50,000 nt of DNA from Thraustochytrium sp. TN22 (taxonomy: Eukaryota; Sar; Bigyra; Thraustochytrida; Thraustochytriidae): assembly GCA_013306675.1 (NCBI GenBank), contig JABLUY010000159.1:1-50000 (forward strand). Reading direction: 5' to 3'. How positions within the stretch are numbered: the stretch's first letter is position 1; every line of letters starts with the position of its first letter. The notes under the pieces are model-generated. The model did not search any database, was not told where the DNA came from, and worked only from the letters and a program-made list of their open reading frames with translations. Shown here piece after piece: positions 8,719 to 45,200 of this stretch. The translations under genes and the position numbers were made by a program.

Positions 8719-11700
8719 TCAGAGCTCGGTGGTGACGATGGGGGCAATGTTGGACCCAGGGCAAGCCAGGATGACGGGCGGCAGGCCCTGGGTGAGCACC
8801 TCGAGGTTTTCAATGTAGCGCGCGGCGTTCTTGGGGTTGACGCGGGAGTGGCTGGGCGGGCGCGGCAGCGGCAAGAAGACCACGCATGCCTTGTCAGCGC
8901 TGTGTGTCTGCACCATGGCATTGAGCTCGGCGCAATGCTCAAGCTGCGTGAGGGGTTGGTGACGCCGGTCGCGGCGTACAGCGCGTGGTGCGGAGCCGTC
9001 GGCGGAGGGCGCGCCGCCAGAGTGCTCCTCAAAGAGCGCGGCGCCCACAGCCGGAAGCACGAGGACCTCGGCCTCGACGCGGATCGCGCGCAGCAGTTTC
9101 TTGAGCATCTCGTACGCCTTTTGCGCGTTCTCGCGCGCCTCGGCAGACCCGCGCGCGTCCGTGACGCTGGAGCAGGCGGCGATGACGCGGAGTTTGGTGT
9201 GGTCCTCCCAGATGTCGCAGCGGTGCAGGCCAAACGCCAGCTGCATTTGGAGCGCCAGGGTTCCGGACGGGTCGTTCCAGTCGGACTCATCAGTGGACCA
9301 CAGATCGATGGTGGTGAAGCGATCGAGGTCGTCGAAGTCGCCAAGGTCATCGAGGCTGGCTCCGATCGAATAGGACGCGGTGGCGGGGCTGTCGGCGGCA
9401 CCATCGGTCCTCGCCGTTGCGGAGGAGGAGGACGGACCCGTGTCGCCGTGCACGAGGCTATAGCGAGAGTCGCGGGAGGACCCGGCGCGACGCATTCGAC
9501 TGCCGTCGCGCGCGGTTGGAGCGGCACCCCGGCCCGCTTCCTGGTTCTCCTCCTCCTCCTCCTCCTCCTCCTCCTCCTCCTCCCCCAGCGCTACTTGCTC
9601 GCCTTGGTGGGCGTCCACGGTCCCGCGACCGCCCGCGAAACTCTCGAGATCTGCGTCAAGCAGCCCCCCACCGTTGACTTCTTCCTCAGCATCGTCCTCC
9701 TCTTCATCGTGAAGGCTAGCGCCGCTGCTGGATGCCACGCCCGAGATGCGGAAGCGAAAGGAGAAGGCAGCCGGAGACTTGAAGAAGAAACGGCCGCTGC
9801 GCCGCTGGTTGCGGGCGTTGCGGCGGCGGCGGTAGTCGACGATGAGGTCCTTGTTGAGCTGGTCGAAGTGACGCGCGACAAGGAGGTTCTTCTCGAGGAC
9901 CAGGACGTCGGCGAGCGTCTCGCAAAAGGCAACCTTGGCGTCGGCCTCAGAGCGCGCCGCCTCCTCGGCGAAGGTGTCGAGGAGGTTGAGCACCTCGCCA
10001 AGCATGGAAGCCGCCTTGGAGGGCGCAATGGAGGTATAGGAGGTGTAGGAGGAGGAGGAGGAAGCGCGACGCAGCGGACGGCCGTGGTCGAGAATGGCGT
10101 TGCCCGCGGCGGCCAAAGACGACGACTGCGCGGCAGCGGCGTCGCCGGCGCCAGCGGCGTCGCCATCGCGCTCAAAGAACTGGAGGCAGACGGTGTTGGG
10201 CCGGAGGCCGCCGAGGCCAGCGGTCATGAGCAGGCTGCGCATGCCGTCGACCACAGAGGGCGCGAGGACGACCTCATGGAAGGCCTTGGCGCCAACCTGC
10301 TGGAAGAGGTCGACCCAGAGTTGCTTGAGACGGTCGCAGGCGAGCGCGTAGTCGGGCATCTCGGCCAGCACGCCGCCTGACTCAGAAGGGCGCTTGGGCA
10401 GGATGAGGACGTTGCCGACGACGTAGAGGCCACCCTTCTTGAGGTTGTTGCAAAAGTCGATGAGCGGGAGCTGGCCCTTGGCGTAGCGCGGCAGAAAGAG
10501 AATGGAGGGCCGCCAGAACTTGGGGTGGCTGCGGCGCAGGTCGAGGCGCAGCAGGTACTTGCGCACCTGGTGGTAGATGAGCGCCTGCGAGACGTCGCCC
10601 CAGGGCGTGACGGGCGCCGTGACGTGCACGTAATAGGCGAGGCCGGCAAGCAGGCAGAAGGCCAGCATGCCCTGCTGCGGCGAGGTGATGAAGATGATGA
10701 AGAGCGCCGCGAGCGCGCCGGCCAGCGCGGTGTGCCAGGAGAAGTAGGCAAAGCGGGGCCGGAAGTTGGGCGCGCTGGTCATGCGCAGCGCGAAGCAGGC
10801 GAGGTTGAGGAAGACGTAGACCAGCAAGAAGCAGTCCGTGACGAGCGCCGCGATGGTGTCGAGCTGCCCGTAGAGCAGGCAGACCTGCGCGATGGCCCAG
10901 CAGAGCGCCAGGGCGACCTGCGGCTCGTCGTCGCGCGCAGAACCCTGCGCAAAGGGGTGGAGCGCCGGCAGCAAGCCGTCGCGCGCCAGCGCCTGCAGGA
11001 GGCGCGCCGACCCTTGCAGGTTGCCCAGCGCCGAGGACAGCGAGCATGTGAGGATGCCGACGACGATAAAGAGGGGCGAGAGGCACTCCTCCTTGAACAC
11101 GTAGAGGTTCTGCTTCAGCGTGGCGCGCGAGAGCGTGAGCGCGAAGACCGTGACCAGCAGCGCGTAGAGTGCGACTGTGAAGCCGATGGCCTGCAGCGTG
11201 CCGGGCCCGATGGAGGCGCCTGGGTCGCGCAGGCGACCCGAGGACCCTGCGCCGGCCGTGATGCCTGTAAAGGCCGGGAAGATGATGACGAAGACGCTCA
11301 AAAAGGTGGTCTGCTGACCCTCCACCAGTGCGCCAGCGGCGGGCGCCGAAAAGTCGAACCAGAAGTTCTGCAAGAAGCGCGACAGCGAAGGCGCGGCCTC
11401 GCCTCCCGGCGCGAAAAGCAGGCTGGCGATGCCCAGCGCCACGCTCGACATCATGACGCCTGTGATGAGGTTGGTGAACCTGCCCATGGCCGACCCGATG
11501 GTGGCGGCCGATGCTGTCAGCAGCAGCAACGTGAAGCTCGCCACGAAGAAGGTGAGCAGTGCGCGGTCCTGCACCATGCCCGAACAGTCGTCCGCGTCCG
11601 GGTCGCACACAAAGGCGTTCACGAAGGTCTCCGCGAAGGCGATGAGACTGAAGGAGGTCGATACGCTCAGCGAGAGCGTGAAGATGACGCCCACCGCCAC

Positions 11701-12093
11701 GCCCAGCTCCGGCCCGATGCTCCGCGAGATCATGTAGTAGGCGCCACCGCCCTTCATGGTCCCGTTGGTCGAGATGGCCGCTAGGCTCAGCGCCGTCATG
11801 ACATTCACGAAGGTGCCCGCTGCGATCATGCACATGACGCCCAGCCAGCCCGCCTCGCCTACCGCCCAGCTCATGCGCACGAAGAGCACGGCGCCCAGGA
11901 TCGACGACACGCACGGCATGAAGACGCCCTCGAAGGTGCCCAGCCCGTTCGCGCGCTGCTCCTCGCGGCTTCGGATTCCGCGCAGCCGAGGGCCTCGCCG
12001 AGGTCGTGGCTCCGAGCCCCTGCTCGCCGCGCTGCTTGTGCCTCGCCCCAGCAAGGGCGCTTCATTTGAGCCAATCGGTGCCATCTCAGCCAT
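8719..12093 (-). CDS. SLC12-family cation-chloride cotransporter
   Basis: This 1124-residue protein is an electroneutral K+ and/or Na+ with Cl- cotransporter. After a basic N-terminus (about 1-50), the membrane domain opens with the family segment GVFMPCVSSILGAVLFVRMSW. It continues through KGGGAYYMISRSIGPELG, a stretch typical of the first helices of cation-chloride cotransporters, with about 12 hydrophobic segments to about residue 500. The C-terminal cytosolic domain starts with RKYLLRLDLRRSHPKFWRPS and LKKGGLYVVGNV. That signature recalls SLC12A9 and yeast Vhc1 more than NKCC, so a vacuolar or endomembrane location is possible. An insertion with 12 consecutive Glu (about 837-849) and a Ser/Asp-rich stretch interrupts the C-domain. 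The ATG at 12093 opens the frame. Transported ions cannot be set from sequence alone. Confidence 0.93.
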   Translation of the reverse strand: MAEMAPIGSNEAPLLGRGTSSAASRGSEPRPRRGPRLRGIRSREEQRANGLGTFEGVFMPCVSSILGAVLFVRMSWAVGEAGWLGVMCMIAAGTFVNVMTALSLAAISTNGTMKGGGAYYMISRSIGPELGVAVGVIFTLSLSVSTSFSLIAFAETFVNAFVCDPDADDCSGMVQDRALLTFFVASFTLLLLTASAATIGSAMGRFTNLITGVMMSSVALGIASLLFAPGGEAAPSLSRFLQNFWFDFSAPAAGALVEGQQTTFLSVFVIIFPAFTGITAGAGSSGRLRDPGASIGPGTLQAIGFTVALYALLVTVFALTLSRATLKQNLYVFKEECLSPLFIVVGILTCSLSSALGNLQGSARLLQALARDGLLPALHPFAQGSARDDEPQVALALCWAIAQVCLLYGQLDTIAALVTDCFLLVYVFLNLACFALRMTSAPNFRPRFAYFSWHTALAGALAALFIIFITSPQQGMLAFCLLAGLAYYVHVTAPVTPWGDVSQALIYHQVRKYLLRLDLRRSHPKFWRPSILFLPRYAKGQLPLIDFCNNLKKGGLYVVGNVLILPKRPSESGGVLAEMPDYALACDRLKQLWVDLFQQVGAKAFHEVVLAPSVVDGMRSLLMTAGLGGLRPNTVCLQFFERDGDAAGAGDAAAAQSSSLAAAGNAILDHGRPLRRASSSSSYTSYTSIAPSKAASMLGEVLNLLDTFAEEAARSEADAKVAFCETLADVLVLEKNLLVARHFDQLNKDLIVDYRRRRNARNQRRSGRFFFKSPAAFSFRFRISGVASSSGASLHDEEEDDAEEEVNGGGLLDADLESFAGGRGTVDAHQGEQVALGEEEEEEEEEEEENQEAGRGAAPTARDGSRMRRAGSSRDSRYSLVHGDTGPSSSSATARTDGAADSPATASYSIGASLDDLGDFDDLDRFTTIDLWSTDESDWNDPSGTLALQMQLAFGLHRCDIWEDHTKLRVIAACSSVTDARGSAEARENAQKAYEMLKKLLRAIRVEAEVLVLPAVGAALFEEHSGGAPSADGSAPRAVRRDRRHQPLTQLEHCAELNAMVQTHSADKACVVFLPLPRPPSHSRVNPKNAARYIENLEVLTQGLPPVILACPGSNIAPIVTTEL

Positions 12094-12665
12094 GTTTGCC
12101 GCAATCTGCTGTCCAACACTAGGTCTAGCAAGCTAGCTAGAGCTAGCTGGCTGGCTCGACCACGAATTCGACCACGACCACGGCTTCGCCGGATCAGAAG
12201 AAGATGGAGAGGCCGGGCAATCCTGACGATGGGGCTAACCTTGTGTGTGTCGAGCACGAGCACCACCACGGTCGCGCCAGCTCAGAAGATGAGCTCGACT
12301 GGAGAGGCAATGGCGAGAATCAAGCGTGCGAGGTCCGATGCGCGAGGCAAACGAGGCCAGCAAGTGAGGCCGGAGCGAGAGGCGAGCAAGGCCAGCAGCT
12401 TGCCGCGAGCGGCGATGCTGACGATGCCCGCTGCCCGACCGATTGCGCGATTCCAGCTGCACGAGGCACGCGAGACCTGCCACCAGTTCCGGCTGACGCA
12501 GACGCAGACGCAGACGCTCAGGCCGGAGCGAGAGGCGAGCAAGGCCAGCAGCTTGCCGCGAGCGGCGACGCTGACGATGAGGCTGCCCGATTGCGCGTTT
12601 CCAGCTAGCTGCACGAGGCGCGTGAGACCTGCCACTCGTCCCGGCTGACGAGACGCTGACCCTGA

Positions 12666-31236: not shown

Positions 31237-34200
31237 ATGGAAAAGGAAGGCGAGAAACTCGTGGTGGAGGTGGAGGGGAAGCATGAGGACGAGGAGGAGG
31301 AGGGGATGGAGGAGAGCATGGCGATCATGACGTCGCCAACGCGAGCTGACGCGCGCGGAGCGAGGTGGGGCGCGGCACGAGAGACGCGGAGCCTGAGCCC
31401 GGTCAAGAGGAGACCGCGCAAGGCGATGGAGCTGCCGGTGAGCAAGGCGGAACAGCTGCGCCGTGCCGTCCGGCAGGAACTCCAGGAGCTGGACGCTGGC
31501 AAGGACGAGGATAGCGAGAGCCCAAGTCCGGAGCGTCACGGGTTTTACGTCGCTGACGCGACGACCTCGTGTTCGGAGCGCACGCTGGGCCAGCCGACAT
31601 GGCGCGGGACCGTGGACCAGGACGCGCTGGCCAGAGTCGCGCATATCGATCTGCGCCTGGAGAAGGTGTACCGCAAAAAGGTCAAGGTGCGACGGCATAA
31701 GGGCCAGCGACTCGAGCCGCTGCCTGCTCCGAGTGGTCGCGCACAGGAGGTGCAGACGCTGCTGTCGCGCATGCGCGAGGCTGGGACCTCGTGCGGCGCC
31801 ATGGACGCAGCCGATGCCGAGGCCACCGAGGCGCACTTCGATGAGTGGATGCGTGCGCTGACAGAGGGCGGCGATGACCCCATCGGCGTCGGCAAAGAGT
31901 GCATTGAAGTGTGTGGCACTGAATTTGACGCCTGCCTGAGGTTTCTGCGCGAGGACCTTGCATTCCTGCAGCGCTTCGTGTCTCCCACCGATGAGTCGCA
32001 CAGCGTGCGCGACGCGTGGACCTCTGCTAGTAGCATAGCATCCGTCGACGGCGTTCCGCGCCAGCTCACGCAGACATGCCTGAACCGCAGCGCGAAACTG
32101 CTGCGCCTGTGGCGCGCGGAGCATCGCATCCTGTATTTTCTGCTGGAGCGCTACGAGGAGGATCGCGACCGCTTTGCCCTGGACGGCGACCCGAGCTTTG
32201 TCGTCGCGCTCGAGCAGGCCAACTCGGGATTGCACAAGGAGATTCACGAACGCGATGAGACCATCGCCTCGCTGCAGAACGCGCTCAAAGATTGCAACGC
32301 GATCTTGGACGCTCTCGACGCCTATGACGACGACGCCGACTTGCGGCTTCTCCGGCAAGAAATCGGCATGCTCAAGCCGTCCGGGGTCACCGATACCCTG
32401 CAGCGCCTGCTAGACCACATGCGCAAGGTGACTGTGATTCGTCGGCGCCAGCTGGAGCGCACCAATTCGGATTACTCGGTTTTGAGCGAGGAGGAGGACG
32501 ACCGGCCTGTGCGCCGGGGCAGCAAGATGACCATCGCCGCGGCCGCGGCCGCCTCGGTGGCCGAGGCCGCAGCCGTCCAAGCCGACAACACCCCGGACAC
32601 CGGAGGAGACGGTCTTGAGGACAACCTCGAAAATGTGGGCGAAATGGAGGAGGCCGAGGACTCCTCGCAGGAGATCCCGGAGCTGAACGAGTACGGCAAG
32701 GTGGTAGTGGTGGGTGGCTCGATGAAGCGCCGTCCTTCGCTTTGCATTCAGGATCGCATCGAGAGTAACGTCAAGCTCCTGGATGGGCTGCAGCAGTCCC
32801 AATTTATGGCAAGCTGGCTGACGAGAGCCGACCCCTCGCACCTCAAGAAGATGATCATGGACCTGGACGAGGCGGGCCAGCGCACGCTGGTGGCATCATT
32901 GCTGGAGAGTGCCGCGGACGGCCGTGCCACGAACTTCATTCGCGAGGTTTTGCGTCAAATTCAGTCCAGCAGCGACCGCGTCGACCTCGTGCTGGAGTTC
33001 TTACAGCTTTTGGACAACGAGGAACTGGACATGATTGCGCCCAAGCTCGTCAAGACCGTTACGGCGAGCCGCTTGCAGCAAGTCACGGCGCGCGGCGAGC
33101 AAGAGAAAGACCAGGATGATGAGCAAAACACAGACATCATTGAGTGGTCCACAAGCACTTCGGAGCATCGCGAACGCTTGCGCAACCAGACGGAGTTCGG
33201 CGCATCCAAGTGTGTGCAAACCGACATCTCTATCCCGCTGCTTAGTGAACCAGGCGCTGGCCCTCGCCACGTGATCATGCAGGCGCTCAAGACCCAGCTC
33301 CACCTGAACTGCACAGACGAAGACGAGGAGGACGAAGAAGAGGACGAGGAGGAAGACGAGGCCACGGAACGCAAGAGTGACCTGGACGAGGAGGAGGACG
33401 GCGGCAGAGACCTGCTCGGCGAGGAAGGCGACGCGATGAGAAAGGCGCTCAGCGACACGCAGCCGAGCGTCGAATACGGAGCCGGAGACGAAGGGGGGGC
33501 AGAATCGGAGCGTTTGGTTTTGGAGGAGGAGGAGGAAACGGTGGCGGAGGTAGAGGAGCCTGACAACGCGGCAGCTGAGGAGCTCTTGGCGGGCGACGAT
33601 GTTGACGCGGACGAGCAGACCTCACTGAGCCTGCTGCCGCGAGGCGGCGGCGGCAAACGGCGGCGGCGCGGCAGCGCGGACCTGCAGGCCACGATCGCGT
33701 GCATGGACATCCGTAACAAAGCGCTGCTGCACGAAGGCGGTGAGCTGGCTGTCATGGTGACTCTTCGGCGCATCAACCGCAAGTTCATCACCCCGACGCT
33801 GAACGAGGCGCTGCCGTGGGAGAAGTACCTGTACAAGCCACCCAAGCACCGGCGCGCGCGCAAGATCGAGCCTTCGCACCTAGAGGACATCATCATTGGC
33901 GAAGTGTACCAAAAGAAGGTCCAAAGCGACAAGGCGCTTCGCGAGGCGGGCCGCAAGCCCCACTCCATCGCAAAGACTATCCTGCACTTTTTTACGCAAA
34001 AGTATGGCCTCAAGAAGCTAGCTGAGGAGTACCTCTACGGCATCGTGCAAGCGATTCGCTACGCGCACAAGGAGTCGTTGCGCATCCGCCTCTTTGGCAT
34101 GCTCGTGGGCGTCGTCAATCCGGAGAGCTACTCGCTGACGCTCTGCGACGTGGTCATGACATACCTCGCGGCGGTCTTCCCGCGCGTCGATGGCATCGCC

Positions 34201-34881
34201 AAGGCGCTTGAACATGGCACCGAGCTCACGGTCGTGCAGACCACGGCTGCCGTGCGTGCGGTGCGCTCCATCTTTCGCGTCGTGGAGGGCGACAAGGGCT
34301 CGGCAAGTCCAACTGCCGCGGCGCCCACCAGCCCGGGAGCACCCGGTGACGAGGACGTTGGCAACGCGGTCAGTGATGACGCCGCCGCTGGCGCCGGTGC
34401 GGCGCTTCGGTACTGGGTGATGCCAAACGCATTCCGCCAGAAGCTTCTCAAGTGGGTGGACCAGTGCAGCCTGCCGGAGTCGGAAGTGAACAAGGCCAGC
34501 TCCAGCGACATTAAGGTTGTGAACCTGGACCAGTTCTTGAGCAAGGTGGTTCAAGTCTTCCTCACCAAGGTAGAGTTGGACCGCGCCATGATCATCCAGC
34601 TCTTTCGCACCTTTGACGTGAACGGCGACGGCGTGCTTTCCTTCGAGGAATTCCAGGAGCTCTTGCAGCAGGCGCAGCCGCAGCCGCCGCTCACCGAGTC
34701 ACAGCTCATGGACCTCTGGATCGAGGTCAACGACCACGAGGACGACGACGACCAGGATAGCATCACCGCCGAGGCCTTTGCCACCATTTGCATTCGCAAG
34801 AACCTCGAACTGCCCTACTGGCGCTACGACGAGGAGAACGAGATGCTTCGCCTCGTCAAGCAGCTGGAGGAGGACCTTTGA
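31237..34881 (+). CDS. Large EF-hand protein of unknown function
   Basis: A 1214-residue, mostly helical and acidic protein. After a Glu-rich start, likely coiled-coil segments occur around 310-400. Long Asp/Glu-rich low-complexity stretches occur at about 685-800. A helical module near 870-1000 includes a LEDIIIGEVYQKKVQSDKA-like segment, FFTQKYGLKKLAEEYL and RIRLFGMLVGV; I have seen similar segments in EF-hand and axonemal-type proteins of protists, but no named domain is claimed. Near the C-terminus a canonical EF-hand loop begins at D1127 (DVNGDGVLSFEE), followed by a degenerate partner with an Asp-rich loop, so calcium binding is likely. No signal peptide or membrane helix is seen. The ATG at 31237 has G at -3. 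The Kir fusion gene begins 232 bp downstream on the same strand. Confidence 0.82.
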   Translation: MEKEGEKLVVEVEGKHEDEEEEGMEESMAIMTSPTRADARGARWGAARETRSLSPVKRRPRKAMELPVSKAEQLRRAVRQELQELDAGKDEDSESPSPERHGFYVADATTSCSERTLGQPTWRGTVDQDALARVAHIDLRLEKVYRKKVKVRRHKGQRLEPLPAPSGRAQEVQTLLSRMREAGTSCGAMDAADAEATEAHFDEWMRALTEGGDDPIGVGKECIEVCGTEFDACLRFLREDLAFLQRFVSPTDESHSVRDAWTSASSIASVDGVPRQLTQTCLNRSAKLLRLWRAEHRILYFLLERYEEDRDRFALDGDPSFVVALEQANSGLHKEIHERDETIASLQNALKDCNAILDALDAYDDDADLRLLRQEIGMLKPSGVTDTLQRLLDHMRKVTVIRRRQLERTNSDYSVLSEEEDDRPVRRGSKMTIAAAAAASVAEAAAVQADNTPDTGGDGLEDNLENVGEMEEAEDSSQEIPELNEYGKVVVVGGSMKRRPSLCIQDRIESNVKLLDGLQQSQFMASWLTRADPSHLKKMIMDLDEAGQRTLVASLLESAADGRATNFIREVLRQIQSSSDRVDLVLEFLQLLDNEELDMIAPKLVKTVTASRLQQVTARGEQEKDQDDEQNTDIIEWSTSTSEHRERLRNQTEFGASKCVQTDISIPLLSEPGAGPRHVIMQALKTQLHLNCTDEDEEDEEEDEEEDEATERKSDLDEEEDGGRDLLGEEGDAMRKALSDTQPSVEYGAGDEGGAESERLVLEEEEETVAEVEEPDNAAAEELLAGDDVDADEQTSLSLLPRGGGGKRRRRGSADLQATIACMDIRNKALLHEGGELAVMVTLRRINRKFITPTLNEALPWEKYLYKPPKHRRARKIEPSHLEDIIIGEVYQKKVQSDKALREAGRKPHSIAKTILHFFTQKYGLKKLAEEYLYGIVQAIRYAHKESLRIRLFGMLVGVVNPESYSLTLCDVVMTYLAAVFPRVDGIAKALEHGTELTVVQTTAAVRAVRSIFRVVEGDKGSASPTAAAPTSPGAPGDEDVGNAVSDDAAAGAGAALRYWVMPNAFRQKLLKWVDQCSLPESEVNKASSSDIKVVNLDQFLSKVVQVFLTKVELDRAMIIQLFRTFDVNGDGVLSFEEFQELLQQAQPQPPLTESQLMDLWIEVNDHEDDDDQDSITAEAFATICIRKNLELPYWRYDEENEMLRLVKQLEEDL

Positions 34882-35113
34882 TGACGAATACTTTTTTACC
34901 AATCCAATGTCAAGAGAAGCCCGAAGACGCTGTGTGAAATCCTGTGCGCGTGGCGCAAGGTGCACATTTCGTGCGTGCGCAAGTGCCTGCACTGCAGAAT
35001 CGGTGCGTGCAGATGGAAATCGGTGCGCGCAGATGCAGCAGAGCAGTGGCGGGCAGCAGGAGCAGCAGTACCCGAACGTTGACCCCGAGCGGACCCGAGG
35101 ACGCCTGGGCGCG

Positions 35114-38100
35114 ATGGGCGCGGCGGCGTCGGGCGCGGCGGCGCCGGACGACGCGCAACGGCCCCGCGTGGGCCCCGCGGCGCCGGCCTCGCCGCGCCGT
35201 GGCCGGGCGAGCGTGGCCAGCAGGCTGATGGCGAGGCCGGAGGCGCCAACACTGGACAGCGACGACGACGACGACGACAACGACGACCACGACCACGACA
35301 ACAGCGGCGACGACGTGGAGGCCGGCACGTCGTCGGCAACGTCGGGGGCAGCTACCGGGAGCAGGAGCAGGAGTAACACGCCAAAGGCGAGCCCGAGCTC
35401 GCCCACGCAGGCTGCCATCCTCCAAACGTGCGTGCTGCCGCCCGAGGCCGTGCAGGACACGGCCAAGGAGCCCGAGGAGCAGGAGAACGCCGCGCAGGAC
35501 CAGCTCGTTGTGGAGAGCGGCAGCCTGCCGCTAGAGAAACCCGCGAGCGTGCAGGGACTCGTGGAGCACCTGCCGCGGTCTGCGAGCGAGCTCAGTCGCG
35601 CGTCGGCGGGCAGCGGCAGGAGCCTCATGGCGCGCGAGGCATCGGCGAGGGCGCGCGGCCACGGGCCCGCGATCGGGCTGTCGCTAGCGGAGTGGCGACG
35701 CCTCCGGGTAGAGCGCCTGCGCCGGCGGCAGCGGCACTCGTACAAGCAGCGCAGGTACGCGCCGGACAACATCGTGTCGGGGCGGCGCAAGAAGCGGTCG
35801 GCGCTGCACGGCACGGGCGTGTCCAAGTGGTACGAGGCGAAGAACTGGTACTACGTTCTGCTAGACTGGAGCTGGGGGTTTGTCTTCTTTCTCGCCGTGG
35901 CGTCGTACTCGCTGACGTGCGTGGTCTGGTCCCTGGTGACGTGGTCGCAGGCGGACGACATCGAGTGCGAGTCTGGCGAGAGCGTCTTCGTGCCCGGGAC
36001 GCTGGGCAGCGCCTTTGTATTTACGACGAGCAACATTCTGACACTGGGCTATGGACCCTGCCTCCCCGGCTCGTACGGGCTGTACGCGCTCTCGTGCGTG
36101 CAGCAGTTTTGCGGCATCATGCTGAACGTCATCGTGCTGTCCGTGGTTGTGTCCAAGTTCCAGATCCCCAAGCCGGACGTGGTCTTTAGCAAGAATGCGC
36201 TGGTGACAACGCGAGACGGTGTGCCGACGCTGCTCGTTCGCGTCGGCAACCGGCGCGTCAACCTCATCTACGAGACGCGTGTCACGCTGGCACTCTTGCG
36301 TTTCCACGAAACGATCGAGGGCGAGCACTTTGTGAGCTATGAGGCGCTGCAGGCCACATTTCCGCCCACGCTGACGGCGGTGGCCACCATCATTCATTGC
36401 ATCGACCGGGACTCCCCGCTGCGGCCCTTTCTGCTCGATCCGGAGGAGATGGCCAACATCGTGCTGAGCGTGAGCTTCCTAGGCCACGACTCTGTCTACA
36501 ATGAGATGCTCGTCTGCACGACGCAGTACAAAGGCTCAGACTTGGTACTGGGTGGCATTCTCTTTGGCGACATGATGGAGCGCCGCGCCGGCGGCAAGGG
36601 CCTGCGCGCCAATTTCGACAAGTTTGACGCCGTGCAAGCGGCCGTGGGCGTGACGCACGAGGAGCTCATGGAGGCGCTAGGTGCGGACCTGGGCTCGGAC
36701 AGGGACGAGAACGACGACGACGAGGAGGAGGAGGAAGAAGGTCGCGCACCGCGCAAGGCGGCGCGCGCCGGCCGGGGTCGGCGACGCGCGCGCCACGAGC
36801 TACGCAACGACGCGTCGCGCGCCGTTGTCCTCACGGAGCTGCCCGCCGAGCCCATTGCCGACACGGTGTACGTGTGCTACGGCGCGGTGCGCCTCAAGAA
36901 CTACCTGGTGCGGCTCTGTCCTTACTCGCGCGTCGTGACCATGTTCCTCATTGAGGCGGGGATCGCGCATCAGGTCATCGACATCGACTGGGACAACAAG
37001 CCAGACTGGTACCTGGAGGCGGTCCCGACGGGCCGCACGCCGGCCATCTTCCACGACGGTCGCTGGGTGTACAACTCGCGCGACATCATGCGGTACCTGC
37101 ACAAGCATTTCACCACGCAGGCGGAGCACCTGAGCCGGCCCCACAACCTGCCTGCGCCGCCGTGGTCCTTCTTTGATGTGCTGGAGCGGCACGCGCACTT
37201 GCTCATGTTCTCGAGCCCGGAGAAGATGCACGAGATGCTGAGTATGAGTCCGGACGAGGCGCGCGGCAAGTTCACGCTCCAGCTTAACGCGGCGCAGTCC
37301 TCCTGGGGCGGCAGCAGCGGCCACCTCCACGCGCAGCCGGAGGGCGGCCTGCCCGCGCTCGCCACACCGGTGGCGGCGACCCTAGGACGCATGCGGCACA
37401 ACCGCAAGGCGACGGCCCGGCCCGTTGCGCGCGGCTCCAAGGTGCACCTCGTGGTGGGCGCGCGTCACCGCGGCGACCGGCTGGCGCGCAGCTGCCTGGC
37501 CTCCCAGACGGTCGAGATGGTCTTGCGCGCGCTCGGCATCGCGCACGAAACCGTTCTGGTTGACGAAGACGACCCGCCGCCCTGGATCGCAGCGGATGAG
37601 ATCCCGATGCTGCTCGGACCGGGTCCGGAGGACCGCGTCACCGTTGGTACCAAAGCGATCCTCGGCCTGCTGCACGAGGTCTTTCGCGCGGAGCACGAGC
37701 GCTTGCCGACCCGATTCGCCTTCAAAGAGGCTCTGACAGTGTGCGCGGCCCTGGAGGAGGCAATCCGGGTGTACATGATGCGGCCGGACGGCACAGGCGA
37801 TGAGCCGCAGAGCGATGTTGTGGACAGGGCCGCCTTGGAGGGCCTGCTCGCGGTGCTGAGGCCTCTCGAGGAAATCCTTGCCGAGAATCAAAGTCGCGAT
37901 GCCGTCGGCGACTCCGGGCTTTCGTGGTATCCGTACCTAAACGGGTCACGCGAGCTCGGCCTGGATGACCTCATCCTTGCGCCGCACCTGCACTTCTTCA
38001 TCGACATGATGGCGCGGCCCATGGACGGATTTTGCCTAGAGCGCCACGGTCTTCGCCTGCTCGATGTATACGTGCGTGCAATGAGTCGCACCGCGCTGAT

Positions 38101-39688
38101 GCGCGAGACGTCGGAGCACGAGGGTGGCGAGCCGTTCTACGTGCTGAACGCCGCCAAGTATCTGGCCAGGCGCTTCCCGGACTGGCTGCCACTGCGGTGC
38201 CGGCCGACGGCGGCGCGCGAGCAGGCCGAGGCGGACATGGTGCGCAAGTTGCTGAGCAACTACGGTAAGGAGTGCGTCAAGGTGGGCGGAGACGGTTCAA
38301 TCACCGTGGAGGGCGGCCTGGCGGGCCCTCCGTTCGAGATGAACACGGTGTACCTGGCCGTGGGCTGCGCGTACCGCCAAGAGTACCTTGTAAAGGTGTG
38401 CCCGTTCTCGCGCGTGGTGGAGATGACGGCCCGGCAGGCGCGTATCCCGTTTCACGTCGTCAAGATTGACCTCCTGAGCAAGCCAGAGTGGTTCGCTCGC
38501 GACACGACGGGCAAATGTCCCAGTGTGTATTGGAATGGGCACTGGATCGGCGAGTCCCAGGTGGTGCTGCAGACGTTACGCGCGCTCTTTCCAACCCTCT
38601 ACGGCGCGCTGGACGCGCCGCTGGACCTTGCGGGCCCGCCGCTCGCGGGACTGCGCGAGATGGCGCTCTTTAACGCCAGCGATAATGTGGCGGAGGCCTT
38701 TCTCAAGGCCAAGACCAACGATCCCGAGCGCGCCGCCAAGCGGCGGGCGCTGGAGGACATGTTGGGGCTCCTGGAAGCGCAGCTGGCCGCCTCGCAAGGG
38801 CCGTTCCTCCTCGGCGCCACCTGCTGCGTGGGCGACTTAGCGCTGGCCTCCTCCCTGTGGCGCGTCGTCAAGGTGTGCTGCGCATGGTTCCACAATTTTT
38901 TCTTGGCAGACCAGGGCTTCGTCCTTGTGGACCGCTGGCTTGCGCATCTCGAGACCCTGGAAAGCTTCAAGGTGTCCATGCCGGCGCTGCCAGAGCCCTT
39001 TCTGATCAAGTTCTGCGCCAAATTCTACGGCGACGCGAGCGATCCGGAGCACAGTCCGCTGCAGGTGACGCCGCTCGTCCTGCGCAACGAGCGCGATGCG
39101 GTGGCGAAGCTACGCCTTGTGGAGTACGGGAGTGTCTCGCAGCGCGATGGCCAAGACATGTTCCATCTGGCGCAGCTGGAGGCGATTCTGCGTATCCTTG
39201 ACGACCTTTTGGCGGCTGACGCGGCGTCTGACGCCGGTAACTTTCTCTGCGGTCGAGAGATGGGCTTCGCGGACATCTTACTCTTCTCGGAGGTGCACTT
39301 CATCAACAGCGCCAGTCAGTGCGTGCACAACTTTTACCTTCTGGATCGTGGGTTTCCCAACCTCCAGCGGTACGTGCGCGCCATCGCGGACAAGCCTCGG
39401 TTCCGGGAGCTGATCTCGCCGGTGTTTGGCGAGCTGATGCGCATCCACTTCTCGAACCGGATGTCCATCAAGTTTCCCTACCTCAAGCTTTCGCGCGAGC
39501 AGCAGGAGCACCTGGAGCTGGCCGCCATCAACAGGCTCGGGTCGTTTGCGCGGCGCGGCGGTGGCGGCGCCGACGCCTCCCGACGCGCCGTTGCAACCCG
39601 CGGCAAGTCTTCCGCCTCGCTCTCCACCGAGTCGCAGAGCAGCGGCGGTCACTCGGGCGACGTGGAGGACCTGCTCTTTTGTATCTGA
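35114..39688 (+). CDS. Inward-rectifier (Kir) potassium channel fused to tandem DHAR/CLIC-like glutathione-transferase domains
   Basis: A 1524-residue fusion. A basic, disordered N-terminus precedes a Kir channel: outer helix about 249-277, pore helix, selectivity filter TLGYG (310-314), inner helix about 325-350, and the Kir cytoplasmic domain (about 350-515) with PKPDVVFSKNALVTTRDG, RVGNRR and a late CTTQYKGSDL segment. An acidic/basic linker leads to three thioredoxin-fold GST N-domains whose motifs match DHAR/CLIC: LCPYS (C602) with KPDWYL and TGRTPAI; a degenerate copy at C794; VCPFS (C1096) with KPEWFA and GKCPSV. Each is followed by helical GST C-domain sequence, and an extra C-domain-like unit ends the protein. 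One uninterrupted frame joins channel and GST parts. The start is uncertain: 35114 has the best context; in-frame ATGs at 35033 and 34907 would add 27 or 69 residues. Confidence 0.88.
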   Translation: MGAAASGAAAPDDAQRPRVGPAAPASPRRGRASVASRLMARPEAPTLDSDDDDDDNDDHDHDNSGDDVEAGTSSATSGAATGSRSRSNTPKASPSSPTQAAILQTCVLPPEAVQDTAKEPEEQENAAQDQLVVESGSLPLEKPASVQGLVEHLPRSASELSRASAGSGRSLMAREASARARGHGPAIGLSLAEWRRLRVERLRRRQRHSYKQRRYAPDNIVSGRRKKRSALHGTGVSKWYEAKNWYYVLLDWSWGFVFFLAVASYSLTCVVWSLVTWSQADDIECESGESVFVPGTLGSAFVFTTSNILTLGYGPCLPGSYGLYALSCVQQFCGIMLNVIVLSVVVSKFQIPKPDVVFSKNALVTTRDGVPTLLVRVGNRRVNLIYETRVTLALLRFHETIEGEHFVSYEALQATFPPTLTAVATIIHCIDRDSPLRPFLLDPEEMANIVLSVSFLGHDSVYNEMLVCTTQYKGSDLVLGGILFGDMMERRAGGKGLRANFDKFDAVQAAVGVTHEELMEALGADLGSDRDENDDDEEEEEEGRAPRKAARAGRGRRRARHELRNDASRAVVLTELPAEPIADTVYVCYGAVRLKNYLVRLCPYSRVVTMFLIEAGIAHQVIDIDWDNKPDWYLEAVPTGRTPAIFHDGRWVYNSRDIMRYLHKHFTTQAEHLSRPHNLPAPPWSFFDVLERHAHLLMFSSPEKMHEMLSMSPDEARGKFTLQLNAAQSSWGGSSGHLHAQPEGGLPALATPVAATLGRMRHNRKATARPVARGSKVHLVVGARHRGDRLARSCLASQTVEMVLRALGIAHETVLVDEDDPPPWIAADEIPMLLGPGPEDRVTVGTKAILGLLHEVFRAEHERLPTRFAFKEALTVCAALEEAIRVYMMRPDGTGDEPQSDVVDRAALEGLLAVLRPLEEILAENQSRDAVGDSGLSWYPYLNGSRELGLDDLILAPHLHFFIDMMARPMDGFCLERHGLRLLDVYVRAMSRTALMRETSEHEGGEPFYVLNAAKYLARRFPDWLPLRCRPTAAREQAEADMVRKLLSNYGKECVKVGGDGSITVEGGLAGPPFEMNTVYLAVGCAYRQEYLVKVCPFSRVVEMTARQARIPFHVVKIDLLSKPEWFARDTTGKCPSVYWNGHWIGESQVVLQTLRALFPTLYGALDAPLDLAGPPLAGLREMALFNASDNVAEAFLKAKTNDPERAAKRRALEDMLGLLEAQLAASQGPFLLGATCCVGDLALASSLWRVVKVCCAWFHNFFLADQGFVLVDRWLAHLETLESFKVSMPALPEPFLIKFCAKFYGDASDPEHSPLQVTPLVLRNERDAVAKLRLVEYGSVSQRDGQDMFHLAQLEAILRILDDLLAADAASDAGNFLCGREMGFADILLFSEVHFINSASQCVHNFYLLDRGFPNLQRYVRAIADKPRFRELISPVFGELMRIHFSNRMSIKFPYLKLSREQQEHLELAAINRLGSFARRGGGGADASRRAVATRGKSSASLSTESQSSGGHSGDVEDLLFCI

Positions 39689-39947: not shown

Positions 39948-42900
39948 TCAGACAGAATCGAAGATGTCAGCCCCAGGCGAGGTGCCGTCCGCCGGAGCGC
40001 TGCCCGCCGATCCAAGAAGGAGTGCAGAGTCGTCGTCGTCGTCGTCGTCGTTGTCTTCGTCGTCGTCGTCGTCGCCGCCGCCGCTGCCGCCAAGGGGCCT
40101 TGCTTCGTCCTCGTCGGAACGCGGCGAGTCGGCATCTTCTTCTTGTTCTTGTTCTTCTTGAGGCGAAAGACCGTACGAGAGGAGCTTCTTTGGGTCCACG
40201 TGACGCGCTGCGTTCCATAGGGCGCGCAGGTAAGTGAAGTAGGAGAGGTCCTCCTGCGCCGAGGACGGCTCTTCGCAGTCGATGTCGCTGGTGCTGCTGG
40301 AGGAGGAGCGGAAGCTGGCGCTCGGGTTGAAGAGAAAGTTGGCGCGGCGGCGGAACTGACGCTCCGTGACAAAGGGCTGATCCGCGAAGCCGGCGCCGAC
40401 AATCATGCCCTCGTCGTTGTACGTGTCGACCATGTAGACGTAGAGCGCGTCGGAGGCGGTGTAGATGAGGAGTGCAAAGAGCAGCAGGAGCTGCAGCACC
40501 GTGCCTCGGATGACCTGCGTGCCGGGCACGGCCATGGAGGCATCTTGGTCGGAGACCACGGTGCAGCCGCGCGGGTGGCGGCCGGCCTCGACGGGCAGGA
40601 TCTCGTTGCTGATGCAGACGTAGGAGGAGAAGTAGCCGAGCATGCCGAGTTGGAAGAGGAGCAGCGGGATGGGCAAGTAGCGCACGGCAGCGCGGCCGAT
40701 GCGGCAGCGCGGCACGGAGTGGCTCTTCTCGCGGCCAAAGACATGATTGAGCTGGTACTCGTCGACGCAGATCTTGACAAAGAAGTAGATGACGCCAAAG
40801 GGCAAGATGATGGGCACCGAGGCGGAGAAGACGACCACCAAGACGAGGACGGAGAGAAAGGTGGCGTACTCACTGCCGAATTCGAAGGCGTGCTTGTTGG
40901 CGAGCTGCGCGGAGGACGGCGGCGCCGACATGGGGTCGCGCGCGAGGCGGGCCCAGGAGCACGAGCCGCCGCCGCCGGAGGACAGGCAGCGCACGAAAAA
41001 GCGGGAGAGGTCAATGAGCTGGAAGGCGGCGCCCACGAGCGTTTGCGTGATGATGTAGGTGAGCGTGAAGGCGCCCGAAGTGACGACGAAGACTTGGCCG
41101 AGGAGGGCAAAGGGGCTGGCATCCTTGGACACGAGCGAGCCAACGAAGCCCTCGAGGGACTTGAAGGCAAAGGCCGGGATAAAGAGCGTGTTGAGCAGGA
41201 GGAACCAAAAGGTCTTGTGCAGCGAGGACTTTTCTTGCGCCGAGTACGTGTGGTGCGGCTCCCAGCGGCCGAGCGCCGACACGACAAACATGAGCGCCGA
41301 GTTGACGAAGACGAGGAAGAGCTGCGGGATGAAGACGAAGCAGAAGCTCGCGAGGCTGGGCGCATGCGCAGAGACGCCCTCCACCAGGCGCAGCCACCAG
41401 GATTCCATGCCGGAGCCGTCGATCTCGGAGGTGGAGGCGTTCGCGTTGCCTAGATGCGAGATGAGCCCCATCACGGAGGCCGGCATGGTGAGCGCCACGA
41501 GAACGATGCCGATGAGTAGGTTGGCCAGCACAGTGCGCAGCCAGTACACCTTGGGATCCAGGTGCAGCGACTCCCAGATGAAGTCGTGCGGGTCGGGCGA
41601 AGAGACCACTTCCCACTCGCGTAGGCGCGCGCGGTCAAAGTCCACCATGAGAGCCTCGGCTTCGGCGCGCATGCCGACCGAGGAGAGCGAATGCGAGGAC
41701 GACGCACGCCGAAGGTTCGCACCGGCCGGGGGCTCCACGGCAATTTCCGGCGGCACGGCACGCACCGCTTGCGGCGCCGCGGCATAGGGATGCTCGGAGT
41801 CGAGGTGTGCGTGCAGGTCCGCCAGGCCCGCGGACGTCTCGCCTTGGTGACCACCGCCGCTGTCGCTGCCGCGGTCGCCGTTCGCGCTCCCGCTCCCGCT
41901 CCCGCCGCCATCTGCAGTGCCGTGCTCAAGCGCGGCCAAAGCGGCGGCCGCGACCTTGCCGCCGTTGGCCTGTGCCGCGCCGAACTCGTGGCGCAGATGG
42001 GTCTCGATGGAAAGGCGGATGGCCTTCTGGCGCTCGACCGGGTCGGCAAAGGAGGCCGCCAGGTCCTGCGTCGCAAAGGTGACCAAGCACTTGCCGGCGT
42101 GCCGCGCCTGGAGCGCTTCGCCGAGGCGCCGCAGGTCCACGAGCTCGCGTTCCATGTCGGCCACCAGGTCCCAGCCGCGCGACCGCGGTGAGGCGAGCAA
42201 CGGGCCAGACTCCGAGGCGAGGCTCTCGTCAACGCTAAGAGCGTCCTCCGCGGCACCGCCGGTCTGCTCGGCAACGTCGAGCACATTCTCGCCGCCGCCC
42301 CCGTGAGCCATGCTGTTAACGCGACGCCGCAGTGGAGGCGAGCCGGAAAAGGGCGAGCCGACGGCCTCGGGAATGAGCACGCTACCGGCGGCGGCCTCGG
42401 GGTCCGGAGCGCCGGCGGGGCTAGAGCCGCGCACCTTGGCGCGCGCCTCGCGCTTGGCCTGCTGCGCGGCCTGCATGGTGGCGGCAGCGGCGCTGAAGAC
42501 GGCCGCGGCCTGTGGGTGGTCGGGCGGCGCCGAAGACGCGAACTTTCGCAGCGTGCGCAGATCCTGCTCGAGCTGCTGCGTGCGTTGCTCGATGCGCGCC
42601 GCCTCGGAGTTGTCCATGATGATGATGACATTGCTGACCTGGCCCGGGTACAGCAGGTTAAGCAGGCGCTTCGCCTCGAGCTCCGAGACATCCTCCGGGA
42701 AGTTGCCCTTGACGAAGACCGAGGCGTCCCACATGTCCAAAGACCGCGCGCCGATCACGCCGTGCTTCCAGGACCAGTGCACGTGCTGACGACAGCGGCT
42801 CACGTAGCGGAAGTATAGCATGCTGAAGAGAAAGAGGCAGATCGTGTGGACCCAGAGCAGCGGCGAATGCTTGCGCAGGTGCTGGATCGTGGACCGCGTG

Positions 42901-44300
42901 AAGTCCAGCATCACGCGTTCGTCACCTGCCGTCAGGTGCAGTGGGAGCAGCACTGCGCATCCCACGACTGACATCATGGCCACCAGCACGGCTGTCTCGC
43001 GGTGGATCGCAAGGTATAAGGCCGCCTCGCTGCCAAGGTTCTCCAGGTCTTCGCCGCGGCAGTGCCGCAGACGCACCATATTCGCAAAGGCCGACCGCAG
43101 CTGTGACCACGCCAGCGAGGCTGCCGCCTTGGCCTTGGCATGCCAAGTCGGCTGGTTCACCACGGCGCGCCGGTAGTAGGCCAGCGCCGTGGCGAGCGCG
43201 ACCGGCAGGAACACGCTCGCGCCGAAAACCATGACCATCCAGATGGAGTTCCAGCCCTGCGGTGGCTCGTACGCCAGCGAGTGCTGCAGCTTGGACTTGC
43301 TCGCGTCGATCGCCAACGTCTGCGTCGTGGTCCCGCTCCCCGTGCTGTTTGACGTCACCACCACGACGCCGTCGCCGATATCGTCCGACTCCAGCGACGG
43401 CGGCAGCGTCGCTTGCAAGGTCGGCGCCAGCGTTGCAATCACAGCCTGCACCGTCTGCGAGATGGTCGGTGCCAGGACCGCTGCAAATGTCGGTGCGGCG
43501 GGGGGGGGCATCGGGATGCCGTCATCGTTGTTATCGTCCACGATCGGCGGTGCCGGTCCGTTCTCGCTCTCGTCGTTATTGTTGTTGTCCACCACGGGCG
43601 AAACGATCTCCAGGGACGGAGGCGAGGTTGGCGTCGTCAGGAGCGGCGGAGTTGTCGCTGTTGCTGTCGTCTTCGCTGGGTCCGAGGGCTCCTCCGCATG
43701 GCCCACCTCGCTCGGCGACGATGCTGGTGCCTCTTCTTCACCTTGCACAGGTGGAACCACCGGCTGTGCAGGCGGAACCACAGGTTGTACGGGCGAGGCT
43801 ACGGGCTGTGTGGCAGCAGTCGTCGACGAAGGAGAAGGAGGAAGAGGAGATCCTGGTTGCTCCGGCGCTTCCGGCAATGCAGACGGCGGTTGTGAGGGCG
43901 GAAGAGATGGCGGCTGCGTAGCCTTGTCGCCGCCGCCGCCGCCCAACTTAATGCTCGTTACCAAGTTTGGCGCCCCTGGCGCTGGCGCAGCCGGCGGCGC
44001 CGGCGGCGCCGGCGGTTGCGCCTGCGGCACCAGCTCCGACCCCGCCACTGCCCCTTGCGCAGGCTCCGCTGCCGGTACAGGCTGCGCTGCCGGCCCTGGC
44101 GCTCCTGGCGCAATCTCCCCATTCTTTGCGGGCAGCTGACTCGCCTCTTGCTGCTGCAGGAGCGGCGCGGTCGGCGCGGTCGGCGCCGCGGCCTCCGTTG
44201 GCCCCTCCTCAACGTGCGTCTGACCGGTGGCCGCCGGCGTCTCCTCCTGCTGCGGCATGAGCGTCGACTCCTCGCTCGCTTGCGCTCTGCGCAGCTTCAT
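39948..44300 (-). CDS. OSCA/TMEM63 (CSC1, DUF221) channel-type membrane protein
   Basis: A 1450-residue member of the OSCA/TMEM63 family: mechanically or osmotically gated cation channels, some also lipid scramblases. A Pro/Ala/Gln-rich N-terminus of about 350 residues has no membrane segment. A first helix follows (about 353-375, SIWMVMVFGASVFLPVALA), then two more near 430-500. The cytosolic loop begins with the family segment DASVFVKGNFPEDVSE (about 521), is expanded to about 390 residues by Ala/Ser/Gly-rich insertions, and ends in PHDFIWESLHL. The main bundle (about 913-1290) has helices including LFLVFVNSALMFVVSAL, FWFLLLNTLFIPAFAF and TLTYIITQTL, typical of DUF221. The tail is acidic, with an Asp run. 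The ATG at 44300 (G at -3) is used because the upstream open stretch has no ATG and runs into a CTG repeat. Confidence 0.9.
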   Translation of the reverse strand: MKLRRAQASEESTLMPQQEETPAATGQTHVEEGPTEAAAPTAPTAPLLQQQEASQLPAKNGEIAPGAPGPAAQPVPAAEPAQGAVAGSELVPQAQPPAPPAPPAAPAPGAPNLVTSIKLGGGGGDKATQPPSLPPSQPPSALPEAPEQPGSPLPPSPSSTTAATQPVASPVQPVVPPAQPVVPPVQGEEEAPASSPSEVGHAEEPSDPAKTTATATTPPLLTTPTSPPSLEIVSPVVDNNNNDESENGPAPPIVDDNNDDGIPMPPPAAPTFAAVLAPTISQTVQAVIATLAPTLQATLPPSLESDDIGDGVVVVTSNSTGSGTTTQTLAIDASKSKLQHSLAYEPPQGWNSIWMVMVFGASVFLPVALATALAYYRRAVVNQPTWHAKAKAAASLAWSQLRSAFANMVRLRHCRGEDLENLGSEAALYLAIHRETAVLVAMMSVVGCAVLLPLHLTAGDERVMLDFTRSTIQHLRKHSPLLWVHTICLFLFSMLYFRYVSRCRQHVHWSWKHGVIGARSLDMWDASVFVKGNFPEDVSELEAKRLLNLLYPGQVSNVIIIMDNSEAARIEQRTQQLEQDLRTLRKFASSAPPDHPQAAAVFSAAAATMQAAQQAKREARAKVRGSSPAGAPDPEAAAGSVLIPEAVGSPFSGSPPLRRRVNSMAHGGGGENVLDVAEQTGGAAEDALSVDESLASESGPLLASPRSRGWDLVADMERELVDLRRLGEALQARHAGKCLVTFATQDLAASFADPVERQKAIRLSIETHLRHEFGAAQANGGKVAAAALAALEHGTADGGGSGSGSANGDRGSDSGGGHQGETSAGLADLHAHLDSEHPYAAAPQAVRAVPPEIAVEPPAGANLRRASSSHSLSSVGMRAEAEALMVDFDRARLREWEVVSSPDPHDFIWESLHLDPKVYWLRTVLANLLIGIVLVALTMPASVMGLISHLGNANASTSEIDGSGMESWWLRLVEGVSAHAPSLASFCFVFIPQLFLVFVNSALMFVVSALGRWEPHHTYSAQEKSSLHKTFWFLLLNTLFIPAFAFKSLEGFVGSLVSKDASPFALLGQVFVVTSGAFTLTYIITQTLVGAAFQLIDLSRFFVRCLSSGGGGSCSWARLARDPMSAPPSSAQLANKHAFEFGSEYATFLSVLVLVVVFSASVPIILPFGVIYFFVKICVDEYQLNHVFGREKSHSVPRCRIGRAAVRYLPIPLLLFQLGMLGYFSSYVCISNEILPVEAGRHPRGCTVVSDQDASMAVPGTQVIRGTVLQLLLLFALLIYTASDALYVYMVDTYNDEGMIVGAGFADQPFVTERQFRRRANFLFNPSASFRSSSSSTSDIDCEEPSSAQEDLSYFTYLRALWNAARHVDPKKLLSYGLSPQEEQEQEEDADSPRSDEDEARPLGGSGGGDDDDDEDNDDDDDDDSALLLGSAGSAPADGTSPGADIFDSV

Positions 44301-44455
44301 CCCGCCCTCGCGCGCCGCGCCCGCCGCCGCCTCGCCTCGCGTCGGCGGCGTCCTCGCGGTCCTCGCCGGCGCCGTCTTCGCCTTCTCGCCGCTCCTCGCC
44401 CCGCCGCCTCGCCGCTCGCCGCTCGCCGCCGCCGCCGCCCGCGCGCGCGCGCTCC

Positions 44456-44485
44456 CGCCGCGCCGCGCCGCGCCGCGCCGCGCCG
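44456..44485 (-). repeat. CGGCG pentamer array upstream of the OSCA/TMEM63 gene
   Basis: Six 5-mers in register (CGCCG on the + strand), about 155 bp before the minus-strand start codon. Confidence 0.85.
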
Positions 44486-44728
44486 GGCCCACCTTGCGGT
44501 TCTGCGCGGGCGCCGTGGAGGCGGCGCCGCGCTCCACGCCGCGCTCGTAGCTGCCGGGCCCGGGCGCTACGGCGCGCGAGCCGGCCGTGGCCGGGCTCCA
44601 GCCCGAGCTCGAGCCCGACTTCGAGCTCGGGCCCGGCTCCGAGCTCGAGCTCGCCTCGCCTCGGCTCGAGGTCCACGCCGGGCGCCGTGCTCCGCAGGCT
44701 GGGCTCGTACAGGCGCTGCGCCTAGTTG

Positions 44729-44730
<2 letters not shown>

Positions 44731-44786
<56 letters not shown>
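44731..44786. repeat. CTG/CAG trinucleotide microsatellite, about 18 units
   Basis: A pure (CTG)18 run with a final CT lies in non-coding DNA about 430 bp upstream of the OSCA/TMEM63 start, possibly in a 5' leader. It is likely to be length-polymorphic. Confidence 0.95.
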
Positions 44787-44787
<1 letters not shown>

Positions 44788-45200
44788 GGCTCGTCGCCGC
44801 GCAACGCGAGCGGCCTGCGGAGGTGGGAAGCGACGACGCGAGCGCCGAGAGGGCGCCGGAGACCGCAGTCTCGACGTCGCTCGCTCGCTCAGCAGGTCGG
44901 GCCAGCTGCAGTGCGTGCAGCATGGCAGCCACGCTCTGGCAGGCCAAGAACCCGTGCATGGAGAGGTTGGCCGCCACCTCTGGCAGGCAGGACTCGGAAC
45001 CGGCCACGTCGACGCGCCGTTTGTTGATGCATCATCGCTGCGCCTGCATTCTGCATTCTGTTTTCTCGCTCGCTCGTCATCGCTGGAGGTAGTGCAGTAC
45101 CGCACTGCACGCACCGCAGACCAGCCAGGCCAGGCCGTCGGCGGCCAGTTCTGCAACGCCGCCGCTGCACCGCGCGCCGAGGCCGCGGGCGCGGGCGTCG

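Follow-up and report, generated by a model that had tools for sequence, protein, structure and literature searches.

An open frame in the genome of Thraustochytrium sp. TN22 raises the question of whether a Kir potassium channel and GST domains can belong to one and the same protein, and of what such a protein would do. The window, that is the whole stretch of 50,000 nucleotides analysed here, carries on its forward strand a stop-to-stop open frame at 34622-39688 which from the ATG at 35114 encodes 1524 amino acids (1524 codons), and which is referred to below as Kir-GST. The initial annotation had read in it a Kir pore and a Kir cytoplasmic domain followed by three GST N-domains, and this order holds, the frame being free of stops and the domains matched. 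The domain search that the annotation had proposed finds the IRK_C, GST_N and GST_C families of Pfam over cut-off on the whole protein, and the cysteines C602, C794 and C1096 as well as the TLGYG filter (residues 310-314) lie where it had placed them. The frame, its N-terminal region, the channel part and the linker are as follows:

35114..39688, + strand: Kir-GST fusion ORF, from the open frame and the codon statistic; start codon likely, not certain
35114..35785, + strand: N-terminal low-complexity region, residues 1-224, probably disordered, begins MGAAAS; no Pfam match
35870..35941, + strand: TM1, residues 253-276, from hydropathy and the KirBac alignment
36041..36055, + strand: selectivity filter TLGYG, residues 310-314, aligned with TIGYG of Kir2.1 and KirBac3.1
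36080..36169, + strand: TM2, residues 323-352, from hydropathy
36179..36640, + strand: Kir cytoplasmic domain IRK_C, residues 356-509, including C429 and C468, from Pfam
36659..36877, + strand: acidic/basic linker from Kir to the GST modules, residues 516-588, in frame and without a GTRAG site

A chance origin of the frame is rejected on account of its length. The remaining five frames contain 16 to 42 stops across 35114-39685, and in 300 first-order Markov sequences of equal length, read in three frames, the longest open run is 460 codons (median 230) as against the 1524 open codons found here. The codon statistic was trained on six presumed genes with 6157 codons, comprising two window neighbours and, from the same genome, three Kir genes and one GST gene; when all six frames are compared in windows of 300 bases, it prefers the Kir-GST frame 30 times out of 32. 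The two exceptional windows overlap the 3' end of an upstream EF-hand gene and the score at window 34922 is slightly negative, and coding therefore probably starts near 35072-35114. In-frame ATGs are also present upstream of 35114, and the codon statistic gives no support for coding before about 35072. The N-terminus MGAAAS (window positions 35114-35131) resembles, by its letters, an N-myristoylation signal.

The linker between the Kir part and the GST modules is charged and of low complexity, and it is here that two genes or transcripts could be read together or the assembly misjoined. Such a reading can draw on the low complexity and on the codon score, which dips to its linker minimum of 0.11 at residue 540. 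It is nevertheless highly improbable, as no stop interrupts the 1524 codons, the Kir-GST frame scores best of the three forward frames in all 15 fine-scale linker windows, and a search for a GTRAG donor in 36640-36920 found none. With the codon signal continuous across the linker the proposal of two genes is rejected, and the sequence argues strongly that the Kir and GST domains are fused within one frame and that this architecture is real. Claims on the function of the protein are of moderate strength at best.

The upstream EF-hand gene (31237-34881, +) encodes a large acidic protein with the EF hand at its C-terminus, and it stops 232 bases before the Kir-GST ATG. The convergent neighbour on the other side (39948-44804, -) matches RSN1_7TM with 96 bits and presumably encodes an OSCA/TMEM63-like channel. 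Elsewhere in the window, a protein kinase domain is followed in one frame by a PP2C phosphatase (1028-3160, +; 106 and 178 bits), making a kinase-phosphatase fusion, and 8722-12132 (-) encodes an SLC12-type cation-chloride cotransporter (AA_permease 196 bits, SLC12 38 bits).

Judged by its sequence, the channel part is a divergent Kir channel. Scanned alone it matches IRK_C with 53.9 bits (cut-off 22.5), and in a phmmer search of the PDB (116 distinct chains with E no higher than 1, the best 60 inspected), residues 241-490 align with KirBac3.1 (E 1e-20) and animal Kir chains are matched too. The IRK transmembrane model stays under its cut-off on the whole protein and also when the Kir part is scanned by itself (19.2 versus 22.7 bits), and a search of the organism's own genome with it did not pick up the Kir-GST gene; the cut-off is treated here as a search threshold rather than a structural definition. 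Hydropathy windows pass at 253-276 and 323-352 only, and since the whole protein has no more than these two hydrophobic segments its GST part is predicted not to cross the membrane.

The Kir part has features of both bacterial and eukaryotic channels. Like KirBac3.1 and other bacterial Kirs it aligns over pore and cytoplasmic domain and has a short loop after TM2, whereas its identity to the KirBac L036 is about 26%. With Kir2.1 and Kir6.2 it shares the same fold by sequence, and N338 aligns with Kir2.1 D172 and with an Asn of Kir6.2, Asn at this position being a sign of weak rectification. K348 aligns with Kir2.1 K182, and Lys is matched at two of the four positions K182, K185, K187 and K188 of Kir2.1. 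C285 and C316 flank the selectivity filter and fall close to the columns of Cys122 and Cys154 without coinciding with them, and a Kir2.1-type disulfide is not claimed. Two results are counted against a redox-regulated channel: a PDB search with the end of the Kir domain by itself matched no Kir chain, and Val occupies the place of Kir6.1 Cys176, a residue that we equate with the Kir6.2 Cys in the alignment. C468 stands in a column that putatively corresponds to Kir2.1 Cys311; the L036 KirBac has Ala in this column, as does the Kir of contig C75, which is counted against a redox role.

In the genome (37.9 Mb in 453 contigs), PfaD-type PUFA synthase is matched with 668 and 661 bits, in keeping with a thraustochytrid source, and the same model also passes its cut-off in 1 of 14 control genomes, so that it does not mark this group specifically. 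The genome contains three further Kir genes, on contigs C75, C4 and C399. In a tree of 14 rows these form a group of their own (100/100), separate from the Kir part of Kir-GST, which has a branch length of 3.0 and finds no firm place; as the tree cannot place this long branch, it does not establish that the Kir part came from bacteria. The GST_N_3 model, which finds modules 1 and 3 of Kir-GST among its 18 places in the genome, has no match on C75, C4 or C399; as it misses module 2 a degenerate GST could escape it, and in the three Kir frames read by eye no GST was seen. A second copy of the fusion was not found in the genome, with one weak match elsewhere that is a GST, and an origin as a recent copy of another gene of the same genome is therefore rejected. 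The nearest frame of the genome that was compared is a gene on contig C110, with 31% identity over 70 aa to module 1 and 24% over 204 aa to module 3. As for the other Kirs themselves, the filter of the C75 channel (L013:1484-3256, -) reads TIGYA instead of GYG, which may point to an altered filter or to a subunit with a modulatory role, and that of the C4 channel reads TLGFG. In the Kir genes at L014:1375-5448 (-) and L015:1110-3722 (+) the cytoplasmic domain is interrupted by a long insert, in which a zinc-finger-like CPVCG...D(E/Q)HLLRH stretch is seen by eye.

Beyond the linker the frame encodes the following GST-type domains:

36878..37129, + strand: GST N-domain 1, residues 589-672, CPYS, C602, from Pfam and PDB; no GST_C match before module 2
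37439..37699, + strand: GST N-domain 2, residues 776-862, CLAS, C794; glutathione site degenerate
37700..38200, + strand: GST helical domain 2, about residues 863-1029; GST_C_2 16.2 bits, under cut-off
38351..38608, + strand: GST N-domain 3, residues 1080-1165, CPFS, C1096; glutathione site largely kept
38609..39013, + strand: GST helical domain 3, about residues 1166-1300, from the DHAR2 alignment; GST_C_2 20.7 bits, under cut-off
39131..39403, + strand: fourth GST helical domain, about residues 1340-1430, without an N-domain; GST_C_3 28.3 bits, cut-off 21.6

On the whole protein, GST_N_2 and GST_N_3 match in three stretches and GST_C_2, GST_C_3 and GST_C all pass their cut-offs. N-domains 1 and 3 also exceed the GST_N_2 and GST_N_3 cut-offs when scanned alone, and N-domain 2 then stays under the Pfam cut-off (19.5 versus 22 bits). 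Compared among four segments only, the N-domains match each other with E of 5e-20 (1 and 3), 7e-9 (1 and 2) and 1e-7 (2 and 3), and identity between modules 1 and 3 is about 36% in a stretch of 101 aa. The label DHAR/CLIC-like that the tail had received is upheld in its DHAR half for two modules, where DHAR and omega-class matches are strong: the PDB matches of module 1 include pyrimidodiazepine synthase (5.5e-9), DHAR (9e-9) and GSTO1 (1e-8), and module 3 together with its helical domain matches DHAR2 (5lol_A, E 5.8e-14). The CLIC half is weak: the CLIC-like_N model reaches 24.0 bits on the whole protein (cut-off 23.5) and 17.6 bits on module 1 alone, and the PDB matches of module 2 are marginal, the best being CLIC1 with E 0.24.

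The three N-domains are as first described, but their pairing with helical domains is uneven. After module 1 no GST_C match is found by Pfam and the alignment shows merely a short stretch, the helical domain being mostly missing, and the helical domain at 1340-1430 is unpaired. This fourth domain is closest to that of module 2 (34% over 112 aa), and searched alone against the PDB it returns nothing clear (a designed ankyrin at E 0.24, a GST at 0.37). The idea was considered that it may complete module 1, with modules 2 and 3 inserted between the two.

For the glutathione site we take chain 5lol_A to be AtDHAR2, with chain numbers shifted by two and the first Cys of CPFS as Cys20. Eight positions were compared, using the AtDHAR2 residues given in section 6 of PMC5307357. 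Module 3 keeps five of these (C1096, K1123, K1134, P1136 and S1148 at Cys20, Lys47, Lys59, Pro61 and Ser73), and E1147 replaces Asp72. Module 1 keeps four (C602, K629, P643 and S655 at Cys20, Lys47, Pro61 and Ser73), with R641 in place of Lys59 and N654 in place of Asp72. Module 2 retains only Cys20 and Pro61 (2/8), Thr replacing Ser73. The active-site residue, cis-Pro and Ser of a GST N-domain are accordingly present in modules 1 and 3, and in module 2 only the Cys and the Pro. The Cys in the catalytic place is conserved in all three modules, and of their motifs CPFS in module 3 agrees with the DHAR motif CPFS/C, while module 1 reads CPYS and module 2 CLAS. None of the three has Asp19, the catalytic-place Cys being preceded by L601, S793 and V1095, which is counted against a redox role; an Asp does precede the catalytic Cys in the three DHAR chains compared, and if these chains are taken to define a DHAR the modules would fall outside. 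The annotation had proposed C602, C794 and C1096 as sensors, a role which is likely for C602 and C1096, whose sites are largely kept, and doubtful for C794, where most site residues are lost. With two of eight positions left in module 2 and most of the helical domain absent from module 1, the tail may not be active over its whole length.

Relatives of the fusion were sought in several sequence collections. Among 299 bacterial genomes drawn from the phylum of a Magnetospirillum match, IRK_C is found in ten, in open frames of 294-440 codons, and with at most 440 codons these KirBac frames have no room for a GST tail. The contig sets were searched with short peptide patterns, which may miss relatives. 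In viral contigs the whole protein gave 2 pattern matches and the GST alignment 65, with no relative in either case, and the same kind of search in phages found none. Plasmids gave 11 records, and of the best 10 of these 11, seven match the Kir part only and three a single GST stretch only, covering at most 17% of the query. In genome contigs a two-row Kir alignment gave 74 pattern matches and one relative, a KirBac. The fusion is known from one genome. That no Kir-GST fusion has been described, as the annotation had stated, agrees with a literature search in which none appeared among the matches listed, absence from these open-licence PMC papers being weak evidence; nor was such a fusion found in protist or stramenopile papers by title or abstract start among the matches listed. 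A 2009 survey of domain fusions in oomycetes has potassium channels as tandem fusions, and the word Kir is absent from the portion of it consulted (PMC2705460).

The reading that we favour, with a probability of roughly 45%, is that Kir-GST would be a tetrameric Kir K+ channel with a DHAR/omega-type GST redox tail that tunes its opening. Kir channels are tetramers and their N and C termini are cytosolic; in Kir-GST the cytosolic Kir domain would carry the GST tail on the same protein, and this tail would hang under the gate. Modules 1 and 3 may bind glutathione on C602 and C1096 and would serve as thiol oxidoreductases or redox sensors near the cytoplasmic gate of the channel. They could add glutathione to channel cysteines or remove it, C468 being a candidate, or they could change shape once glutathionylated themselves, and in either case the opening would follow the GSH/GSSG or dehydroascorbate state. 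A structural role would fall to module 2 and the fourth helical domain. Redox gating and a complement of twelve GST modules per tetramer, both put forward in the annotation, are plausible. A bolder version, which we hold only tentatively and with more doubt, is a redox-gated channel-enzyme, a Kir with its own writer and eraser of glutathionylation in which K+ conductance would be set, in step with GSH/GSSG or dehydroascorbate, by as many as eight live glutathione sites in each tetramer, presumably two per chain.

The favoured reading is in keeping with what is reported for related proteins. S-glutathionylation inhibits Kir6.1 (at Cys176) and Kir5.1 (at Cys158, in Kir4.1/5.1), the inhibition of Kir6.1 is undone by DTT and glutaredoxin, and mutation of Cys311 in Kir2.1 lowers activity (PMC11631806). 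For those CLIC and DHAR proteins that have the CPFS motif, glutaredoxin-like or dehydroascorbate reductase activity is described, as are the formation of a mixed disulfide with glutathione and the reduction of dehydroascorbate or disulfides (PMC4291220, PMC5307357). Because S-glutathionylation inhibits Kir channels and CPFS proteins carry out glutathione chemistry, built-in glutathione redox modules are the simplest reading of the tail. In bacteria, K+ efflux through Kef is reported to be under glutathione control (PMC10224563).

Other uses of the same domains have to be weighed against this. The Kir part could serve as a membrane anchor or K+ leak for a GSH-dependent dehydroascorbate or thiol reductase, gating being uncoupled from the enzyme. 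The alignment of module 3 with DHAR2 in both halves and its five retained site positions would suit such an enzyme and the charged low-complexity linker would permit loose tethering, but an anchor needs neither pore nor filter nor Kir cytoplasmic domain, all of which are kept, and we regard this arrangement as unlikely. Unlikely too is a non-catalytic sensor in which binding of glutathione, its conjugates or some other small ligand to the GST modules would open or close the channel allosterically. Here Kef is a precedent, as glutathione is reported to hold it closed and conjugates to open it (PMC10224563), and the degenerate module 2 and the uneven helical domains suit binding rather than catalysis; against this, the catalytic-place Cys is kept in all three modules and the Pfam scan of the whole protein (16 families at E up to 1) contains no KTN-type domain.

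The GST folds might also do no more than mediate protein interaction or dimerisation, so as to cluster the channel or determine its location, with the cysteines as relics. The few site residues left in module 2 and the fourth helical domain without an N-domain would fit such a scaffold, yet modules 1 and 3 have diverged to about 36% identity and still keep most of their site residues, which makes this distinctly improbable.

Several known systems resemble this predicted channel in part. Module 3 matches plant DHAR2 over N- and C-domain, shares CPFS and keeps five of the eight site positions, whereas the modules of Kir-GST lack the Asp before the Cys, are repeated and are fused to a channel. 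Module 1 is close to GSTO1 (1e-8) and has a CPxS motif as in CLIC1, while the GST part of Kir-GST has no hydrophobic segment and its CLIC match is marginal. The other Kirs of the same genome differ in forming a separate tree group and in having no GST_N_3 match. Animal Kirs under S-glutathionylation have no GST module in the channel chain, whereas in Kir-GST it is built in; in both, glutathione on channel cysteines would control opening, as is reported for the animal channels (PMC11631806). Kef would share with it the control of K+ flux by glutathione, but Kef is an antiporter with KTN domains and a Kir or GST part is not mentioned in the portion of the source drawn on here (PMC10224563).

In the TRPM2 chanzyme the channel and enzyme families differ from Kir and GST. 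Kir-GST, as read from its sequence, likewise has a channel and an enzyme-type domain in one polypeptide, which is one of two features that mark a chanzyme, an enzyme activity linked to gating being the other. For TRPM2 the union of an ion channel and an enzyme-type domain on one chain is described in the cited source (PMC11479946). Overall, the Kir-GST frame suggests a channel whose opening follows the redox state of the cell. Animal Kirs react to oxidants by way of glutathione attached to their cysteines; glutathione chemistry on the same chain would offer a direct test system for the specificity of Kir glutathionylation, and with Kir-GST a further channel superfamily, besides that of TRPM2, would be known to carry an enzyme-type domain of its own.
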